Made by a program: the position numbers and the translations under genes | Notes under the pieces: model-generated | What the model was told of the DNA's origin: nothing | Seen by the model: the letters and a program-made list of their open reading frames with translations, nothing else | Database searches by the model: none | In this document: one piece after another, positions 21,005 to 24,323 of the stretch | Layout: the number at the start of each line of letters is the position of its first letter | Position numbering within the stretch: the first letter of the stretch is position 1 | Assembly: GCA_013822285.1 (NCBI GenBank) | Contig: PNKF01000005.1 | Span: 1-36,145, forward strand | Reading direction: 5' to 3' | From: Gemmatimonas sp. | GTDB lineage: Bacteria; Gemmatimonadota; Gemmatimonadetes; Gemmatimonadales; Gemmatimonadaceae | Length of the DNA: 36,145 nt

Positions 21005-21652
21005 ATGCCGCAGCTGAAAGTCTGCTGCATCTCGTCGGTCGCGGAAGCGGAGCTTGCCGTCTCGCATGGCGCCGCGGCGCTCGGATTGGTGTCGGCGATG
21101 CCGAGCGGCCCCGGCGTCGTGGAAGACGCGATCATCCGCGAGGTCGCGGCCTGGGCGCGAGGCCGCGCGCGCAGCTTCTTGCTCACCTCCCGCACCGAGC
21201 CGGCCGCCATCGCCGAGCAGCTCGAGCAGCTGCAGCCCGAGACCGTGCAATTGGTCGATGCGCTGCCCGATGGTGCGCATCGCGAGCTACGGCGCCTGAT
21301 GCCATCCGTGCGCCAGGTGCAGGTGATTCACGTGCGATCCGAGGCAGACGTCGCCGAGGCGCTGCGCGTCGCACCGGACGTCGATGAGCTGCTGCTCGAC
21401 TCCGGCAATCCTGCGCTCACGGTGAAGGAGCTCGGGGGCACGGGTCGCACGCACGATTGGTCGCTGAGCGCGCGCATCGTGCGCGAGAGTCCCCTGCCGG
21501 TTTGGCTGGCGGGTGGGCTGCGCGCGGAGAACGCCGCACAGGCGATTGCGACCGTCCGGCCCCACGGCCTCGACGTATGCTCCGGCGTGCGCCGCGAGGG
21601 CAAGCTCGACCAAGTCCGGTTAGCCGCCCTGGCGGCGGTGCTACAGGCCTAG
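21005..21652 (+). CDS. Phosphoribosylanthranilate isomerase-like (TrpF family) protein, divergent, not in a trp operon
   Basis: N-terminal KVCCISS (TrpF KxCGI-like), LLLDS, KELGGTGRTHDWSL, WLAGGLRAENAAQAI, GLDVCSGVRREGKLD. Confidence 0.8.
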   Translation: MPQLKVCCISSVAEAELAVSHGAAALGLVSAMPSGPGVVEDAIIREVAAWARGRARSFLLTSRTEPAAIAEQLEQLQPETVQLVDALPDGAHRELRRLMPSVRQVQVIHVRSEADVAEALRVAPDVDELLLDSGNPALTVKELGGTGRTHDWSLSARIVRESPLPVWLAGGLRAENAAQAIATVRPHGLDVCSGVRREGKLDQVRLAALAAVLQA

Positions 21653-21677
21653 CGTCGGCGGCATCCGTGCATTAACC

Positions 21678-21701
21678 TTTCATCCGGATATACGGATGAA
21701 A
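21678..21701. promoter_or_regulatory. Perfect palindrome (candidate ArsR-family operator) overlapping the start codon of the ArsR-methyltransferase gene
   Basis: tttcatccg-gatata-cggatgaaa: perfect 9-bp inverted repeat with 6-bp AT spacer; start codon ATG is 21696-21698. Confidence 0.7.
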
Positions 21702-22634
21702 CGACCCGCCCTCTTTGACCGCCTCTCGGCCCTGGCCGACCCGATTCGCTCGCGGCTCCTGCTGCTCCTCGAGCGGCACGAGTTGACCGTGTCGGAGCTT
21801 TGCAGCGTGCTGCAACTGCCGCAGTCGACCGTCAGCCGGCATCTCAAGGTGCTGTCCGGCGCGGGCTGGCTGGTGGCGCGTGAAGATGGGACGAGCAATC
21901 GGTATCGCTTGGATCCGAAGGCGCTCGATGCGGGCACGCGGAAGCTCTGGACCGCCGTGCGTGAGGAAGCGGAAGGCCTGCCGGCCGCCGCGCGGGACGC
22001 GCAGCGCGTGAAGGGCGTACTCGCCGATCGCCACACGCGCTCGCAGCAGTTCTTCGCGAGCTCGGCGGCGCAGTGGGACAAGGTGCGGGCGGAACTCTTC
22101 GGCACGCGCACGGAGTTGTTCGCGTTGGTCGGTTTGCTCGAGCCCACGCAGGTCGTCGGGGATCTTGGCTGCGGCACGGGCCAGCTCGCCGAGGTGATGG
22201 CGCCGTTCGTGCAGCAGGTGATCGCGGTGGACGAGTCCAGTGCGATGCTCAAGGCCGCCAAGGCGCGACTCGGCGCGCTCGAGAACGTCGAGCTGCGTGC
22301 CGGGAGCATCGAGGAGCTGCCGCTGGATGCCGCGACGCTCGATGTCGCCGTGCTCAGTTTGGTGTTGCACTACGTGGCGGATCCGGTGGCCGTGCTCACG
22401 GGCATCCGTCGCGCGTTGAAGCCGAAGGGCGGCAAGCTGCTGTTGGTCGACATGCTGCCGCACGACCGCGCCGAGTATCGCCAGACGATGGGCCATGTCT
22501 GGTTGGGCTTCGAGGCGGAGCAGGTGAAGGAGTGGGGCAGCGCCGCCGGATTCAAGACGGTGCGCGTCAACGCATTGCCGCCGAGCCCCACGGCCAAAGG
22601 TCCGTCGTTATTCGTCGCTGTGCTGTCGATGTAG
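21696..22634 (+). CDS. ArsR-family HTH regulator fused to class I SAM methyltransferase domain (SahR-like)
   Basis: N-terminal wHTH ([56 protein letters not shown]) followed by MTase ([29 protein letters not shown]). Immediately precedes ahcY. Confidence 0.9.
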
Positions 22635-22726: not shown

Positions 22727-24217
22727 ATGACTGCCGTCGCACCCCAGCTCCACGCATTCGACGCGTCCGCCAAGGCCGGCCGCGAACCGTTCAAGGTCAA
22801 GGACCTCTCGCTCGCCGAGTGGGGCCGCCAGGAAATCCGCCTCGCCGAGTACGAGATGCCGGGCCTGATGGCGCTGCGCGCCGAGTACAAGGGCAAGAAG
22901 CCGCTCGCCGGCGCGAAGATCATGGGCTCGCTGCACATGACCATCCAGACGGCCGTGCTCATCGAGACGCTCACCGAGCTCGGCGCCGATGTGCGCTGGG
23001 TCTCCTGCAACATCTTCTCCACGCAGGACCACGCCGCGTCGGCGGTGGTCGTCGGCAAGGACGGCAGCGTCCAGCAGCCGCGCGGCACGCCGGTCTTCGC
23101 CTGGAAGGGCGAGACGCTCGAGGAGTACTGGTGGTGCACCGAGCAGGCCCTGATGTGGCCGGACGGCTCGGGCCCGAACCTCATCCTGGATGACGGCGGC
23201 GACGCCACGATGCTCGTGCACAAGGGCACGGAGTTCGAGGCCGCGGGCAAGGTCCCGGCCTTCGACGCCGCGAACGAGCCGGAAGAGTGGGGCGTGATCC
23301 TCGAGCTGCTGCGCAAGACGCTCAAGGAAGACCCCAAGCGTTGGACGAACGTCGGCAAGGCCATCCGCGGCGTCTCCGAGGAGACGACGACGGGCGTGCA
23401 CCGCCTCTACGAGATGATGCAGGCCGGCAAGCTGCTCTTCCCGGCGATCAACGTGAACGACGCCGTGACGAAGTCGAAGTTCGACAACCTCTACGGCTGC
23501 CGTCACTCGCTCACCGACGGCATCCTCCGCGCGTCGGACGTCATGCTCGCCGGCAAGGTCGCCGTCGTCATGGGATACGGCGACGTCGGCAAGGGCTCGG
23601 CGCAGTCGCTGCGTGCGCAGGGCGCGCGCGTCGTGATCACGGAAGTCGATCCCATCTGCGCGCTGCAGGCCGCGATGGAAGGCTACCAGGTCACCACGCT
23701 GGATGAGGTCGTCAGCACCGCCGACGTGTTCATCACGGCGACCGGCAACGCCGACATCATCACGGTCGAGCACATGGCCAAGATGAAGGACAAGGCCATC
23801 GTCGGGAACATCGGCCACTTCGACAACGAGATCGACATGGCCGGTCTCAAGAACCTGAAGGGCATCAAGCGCAACCAGATCAAGCCGCAGTTCGACGAGT
23901 GGATCTTCCCGGACGGCCACTCCGTCCTCATCCTCGCCGAAGGCCGCCTGCTCAACCTCGGCTGCGCCACGGGCCACCCGTCCTTCGTGATGTCGGCCTC
24001 GTTCACCAACCAGGTGATGGCGCAGATCGAGCTGCACGTGAACAACAGCAAGTACGAGAAGAAGGTGTACACGCTGCCCAAGCACCTCGACGAGAAGGTG
24101 GCGCGACTGCACCTCGACAAGCTCGGCGTGAAGCTCACGAAGCTCACGGAGAAGCAGGCCGCGTACATCGGCGTGCCGGTGGACGGGCCGTACAAGCCGG
24201 ATCACTACCGCTACTAA
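22727..24217 (+). CDS. ahcY: Adenosylhomocysteinase (S-adenosyl-L-homocysteine hydrolase)
   Basis: [88 protein letters not shown]-terminal KPDHYRY. Start ATG 22727 with a gagg SD-like element upstream. Confidence 0.98.
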
Positions 24218-24261: not shown

Positions 24262-24323
24262 CGAGGGGTGAAGGTCGGAGGGCTCGAAGCGAAAGCTTTC
24301 TGCCCTCCAACCTTCACCCCTCG
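24262..24323. terminator. Long near-perfect stem-loop between convergent ahcY and beta-propeller gene; candidate bidirectional terminator
   Basis: cgaggggtgaaggtcggagggc / gccctccaaccttcacccctcg: 22-bp arms with one mismatch, 18-nt loop. Flanking sequence adds an imperfect outer stem. Confidence 0.75.

Follow-up and report, generated by a model that had tools for sequence, protein, structure and literature searches.

SahR is an ArsR-family repressor that responds to S-adenosylhomocysteine (SAH), and its published core targets are sahR, ahcY, metH, metF and metK (PMC4239095). The SahR and SamR motifs share the arrangement ATC-10 nt-GAT (PMC4239095). The SahR motif is already known to vary by taxon within the Proteobacteria (PMC5343134), and joint control by SahR and the SAM_alpha riboswitch has been published for hom-metXC of Oceanicaulis alexandrii (PMC4239095). 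The locus compared here with these systems lies in a 36,145-nt stretch of Gemmatimonas sp. DNA (the window), in which a palindrome at 21678-21701 overlaps the start of a gene for an ArsR-family protein fused to a methyltransferase domain. Comparison of related sequences makes it highly likely that this palindrome is a SahR-type autoregulatory operator of a sahR-ahcY unit, at which a dimer would repress transcription until released by SAH. The repressor very probably silences both the gene that encodes it and the neighbouring gene for SAH recycling.

The palindrome and its conservation

The sahR-like gene (21696..22634, forward strand) encodes a predicted protein of 312 amino acids with an ArsR winged helix (residues 15-57) and a SAM-dependent methyltransferase domain (residues 156-245). 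The protein matched the ArsR-family domain PF01022 (2.1e-13) and, behind it, the class I methyltransferase domain PF08241, which retains the DLGCGTG nucleotide-binding motif. The gene for S-adenosylhomocysteine hydrolase, ahcY (22727..24217, forward strand; TIGR00936, 623 bits), follows 92 nt 3' of the regulator, and neither an operator of its own nor an Rfam riboswitch was found for it. Upstream, a trpF-like gene for phosphoribosylanthranilate isomerase (21005..21652, forward strand) ends 43 nt before the regulator ATG. Between ahcY and the next, convergent gene lies a long inverted repeat (24262-24323; 29-nt arms, 86% complementary, 4-nt loop), a possible two-way terminator or repeat element.

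The palindrome, TTTCATCCG-GATATA-CGGATGAAA (21678..21701, no strand), has nine perfect pairs on each side, as the sequence-only reading had described. The exact pattern occurs once in the window, with 0 occurrences expected. This GC-rich window contains 16 inverted repeats whose 9-bp arms pair perfectly across spacers of 3-10 nt, versus about 7 in shuffled sequences; a 9-bp repeat is unremarkable by length alone, and conservation was therefore the deciding question.

Regulator orthologues of approximately 52-95% identity were present in about 55 of 98 related genomes, and 80 named loci came from a species-genome collection. Because the two sets partly share genomes, the 136 upstream regions analysed were de-duplicated to 113. 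They represent Gemmatimonadota, Acidobacteriota, Myxococcota (including Pyxidicoccus fallax), Latescibacterota and one bin labelled Cyanobacteria. Conservation upstream of orthologues, on which the operator proposal had been staked, was found throughout: ATCCG-N6-CGGAT was present with at most one mismatch in 136/136 regions and perfect in 93 of the 113 non-redundant regions, across at least four phyla. In addition, all 110 loci tested had ahcY following the regulator in the same orientation.

The invariant portion is a 16-bp core, ATCCGGATATACGGAT (ATC-N10-GAT; 21682..21697, no strand), conserved with 0-1 mismatch in all 136 regions. Across the 113 sites, 13 of its 16 positions carry approximately 1.4-2.0 bits of information, and positions 1-5, 8 and 13-16 carry approximately 1.75-2 bits each. 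The outer TTTC/GAAA flanks are only partly conserved (TTC/GAA moderately), and the last pair of the 9-bp arm is lost in near relatives through a synonymous AAA-to-AAG change (ATGAAA to ATGAAG). The description as 9+9 thus holds within the window and is slightly over-specified for the family. Judged by its conservation, from which its significance derives, the palindrome is no chance repeat.

Predicted promoter, start codon and further probable operator sites

Alignment of the orthologous sites revealed a conserved promoter, TTGACN-N17-TA(A/T)CCT, at fixed spacing with the operator just downstream; TTGAC lies 32-28 nt and TA(A/T)CCT 9-4 nt upstream of the core. In the window, the putative -10 box of the regulator-ahcY promoter is TAACCT (21673..21678, forward strand), while the -35 place (21650..21655, forward strand) holds a degenerate TAGCGT and is occupied by the trpF stop codon TAG (21650-21652). 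The -35 place is likewise degenerate in the nearest relative of the window, and reads TTGAC in most other orthologues. A mechanical scan found no consensus promoter at the window's site, and with the -35 place degenerate, read-through from trpF might therefore also supply transcription.

From the position of the -10 box and usual spacing, transcription is predicted to start in the left arm of the palindrome, at 21685 (forward strand) give or take about 2 nt. The predicted leader is approximately 11 nt long, and no Shine-Dalgarno sequence is visible upstream of the ATG, in agreement with the sequence-only reading. That reading also correctly placed the start codon (21696-21698) in the right arm, where it falls because the predicted leader is so short. 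An in-frame ATG occurs within the right arm in 72 of the 113 non-redundant orthologues (64%), but in the other 41 the palindrome persists with no such ATG in the arm. The overlap, though frequent, is therefore not the conserved feature, and arises mostly because the mRNA is nearly leaderless. The additional block at the translation start region that had been proposed was not upheld, since a DNA-bound repressor acts on transcription, the overlap follows from the leader length and so many palindromes lack the ATG.

As a target definition, exact ATCCG-N6-CGGAT proved too common (up to 25 matches per genome), and the stricter ATCCGGAT-N4-GGAT was therefore used. This pattern occurs once in the window's own 2.5-Mb genome, at the 21678-21701 palindrome, and 1-6 times per genome in 26 related genomes, with 0 matches to a reversed control pattern. 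A two-mismatch match on contig 118 of the own genome, located across the 3' terminus of a gene for a UvrD-like helicase, was dropped, and several single matches within coding sequences of relatives were regarded as chance.

The check for the motif at methionine-cycle genes that the sequence-only reading had suggested came out positive in relatives, where related sites were found at both metF and metH. A second exact site, ATCCGGATGAACGGAT, precedes metF in 15 of 16 genus-mates, with metH following metF, and fills the spacer between a -35 element TTGCCA and a -10 element (TAGAAT, TAGGAT or TAGGTT). Directly 3' of the metF operator lies a SAM-II riboswitch (SAM_alpha, RF00521), which scored 39.6-44.9 bits at the six loci that were scanned. 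The genus-mate metF-metH loci with a SahR-type operator just 5' of SAM-II are L078-L088, L099, L157 and L171. Three genomes from other genera (G031, G046 and G058) carry the operator directly at metH. Neither metF nor metH was matched in the window's own assembly, which is 72% complete, and the assignment of these targets therefore rests on the relatives. RF00521 matched in 95 of 99 related genomes, where the riboswitches (loci L142-L171) precede metH, metF and other genes; no SAM-II riboswitch was found in the window.

Many sites have the extended form ATCC-N4-ATCCGGAT-N4-GGAT, with the outer tetramer within the -10 box. In the window, a tentative, imperfect half-site of this kind, AACC (ATCC in many relatives), lies inside the -10 box at 21674..21677 (no strand), 8 bp upstream of the left half-site of the core. 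The tetramer is CC-rich at sahR, where the -10 box is to the left of the core, and GG-rich at metF, where the box is to the right. The arrangement suggests a second, overlapping dimer site; the extra half-site is absent at metF of genome G035 and is therefore not obligatory.

The second regulator and competing explanations

Five Gemmatimonadaceae genomes (G042, G019, G032, G024 and G051; loci L319-L323) carry a second ArsR-methyltransferase, 34-37% identical to the first, just 5' of metH. An ATAAAG-like palindrome precedes it in most cases with sequence available, and the protein groups with alphaproteobacterial SahR-type proteins. In a tree of 35 proteins, which contains no deltaproteobacterial SahR and in which the long-branched Leptospira row is of unsure placement, regulators of the ahcY/ATCCG type and those of the ATAAAG type formed separate groups (support 98/95 and 100/99). 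The recognition region differs consistently between them, with one 11-residue sequence in the ATCCG type versus GQSQPR(I/V)SRHL in the ATAAAG type. It is conceivable, though on balance somewhat doubtful, that Gemmatimonadaceae possess two SahR-type regulators with operator codes tied to the recognition helix (LPQST with ATCCG, GQSQPR with ATAAAG), one serving ahcY and the other metF-metH; that where the second is missing the ATCCG regulator takes over metF-metH on top of SAM-II; and that the extra half-site in the -10 box reflects two overlapping dimer sites. A single metF-metH promoter would then read SAH through a protein and SAM through an RNA.

Three other explanations of the palindrome were weighed. 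Palindromes are used by many regulators, and the site might be the operator of a different, unlinked one, e.g. a global sulfur or methionine regulator; this is very improbable, given that the site accompanies the adjacent ArsR-methyltransferase gene across phyla and that recognition helix and operator (ATCCG versus ATAAAG) differ together between the two related regulator clades. Slightly less credible still is control of regulator translation by a leader RNA hairpin sequestering the start codon, also put forward in the sequence-only reading. The 24-nt stem-loop has a folding energy of -12.8 kcal/mol (z -4.4 relative to shuffled sequences), and in a transcript begun further upstream, e.g. by trpF read-through, it would enclose the ATG. 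However, the hairpin cannot form in a transcript from the predicted start at 21685, since that start lies within the left arm, and the fold of such a transcript is poorer than that of every one of 200 shuffles. Furthermore, the palindrome is retained in the 41 orthologues whose ATG lies outside it, and the operator copy at metF, lying in the spacer between -35 and -10, is absent from that promoter's transcript. The hairpin proposal was accordingly not upheld, a role at the DNA level being much better supported.

Least probable of all is that the regulator is an ArsR repressor sensing metals or arsenic and lies beside ahcY by coincidence. Automatic family models do label it a metalloregulator ArsR/SmtB protein, but its linkage to ahcY at every locus tested, the additional metF and metH targets and a methyltransferase domain with an intact DLGCGTG motif all argue otherwise. 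The earlier proposal of an operator autoregulating the regulator-ahcY unit is instead supported by conservation, gene order and the metF and metH sites. Under this SahR-type model, a regulator dimer bound to ATCCG-N6-CGGAT would cover the transcription start and the margin of the -10 box, blocking sahR-ahcY transcription. Rising SAH, the presumed effector, would probably bind the methyltransferase-like domain and release the repressor, upon which AhcY would be made and SAH removed. The same protein in relatives very likely has metF-metH or metH under its control as well.

Comparison with SahR, SamR and SAM-II

The system would add Gemmatimonadota, Acidobacteriota, Myxococcota and Latescibacterota to the groups in which the methyl cycle is under transcriptional control that responds to SAH. 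The literature searched on SahR yielded no description of an ATCCG half-site, and literature searched mostly outside subscription papers yielded no paper that connects SAM-II riboswitches to Gemmatimonadota or SahR to Acidobacteria. The natural pair of paralogues would offer a clean test of how ArsR recognition helices choose DNA.

Regulators with the ArsR and methyltransferase domains adjoin metF, metH or ahcY in rhizobia, sphingomonads and Leptospira. On plasmids of rhizobia and sphingomonads, such relatives of 31-36% identity lie ahead of metF, and in Leptospira the relative lies ahead of ahcY. The relatives scanned (Novosphingobium, S. meliloti and Leptospira) contain PF08241 in the same two-domain layout as the window protein. 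Palindromes upstream of the rhizobial, sphingomonad and Leptospira relatives, ACATAAAGATATCTTTATGT and GGATATCAAGATATCTTGATATCC, share the dyad spacing but use other half-sites.

As in SahR of Desulfovibrio and other Proteobacteria (PMC4239095), the regulator belongs to the ArsR family, has itself, ahcY, metF and metH as apparent targets, adjoins ahcY or metF and is paired with a palindromic operator of the form ATC-10 nt-GAT. The window core, ATC-CGGATATACG-GAT at 21682-21697, agrees with SahR in dyad geometry (consensus over 113 sites), and the core regulon is matched by sahR-ahcY in all 110 loci and by metF-metH and metH operators in relatives. In contrast to SahR, the half-site is ATCCG rather than ATAAAG (alphaproteobacteria) or ATCAAG (Leptospira), the operator lies on the predicted transcription start and often on the start codon, and the hosts are outside the Proteobacteria. 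At 31-36% identity to the proteobacterial SahR relatives, the regulator falls in a separate, well-supported clade, with Desulfovibrio SahR entering the comparison by its description. SamR of Xanthomonadales, a distant SahR relative of approximately 30% identity, likewise has methionine-gene targets and a 24-bp palindrome with ATC-10 nt-GAT (PMC4239095). It differs in being reported beside metH genes, with a regulon without ahcY and SAM as the proposed effector (PMC4239095). SAM-II (SAM_alpha, RF00521) likewise controls methionine genes and differs as an RNA element, and metF-metH would provide a simple case for combining SAH sensing by a protein with SAM sensing by an RNA at one promoter.
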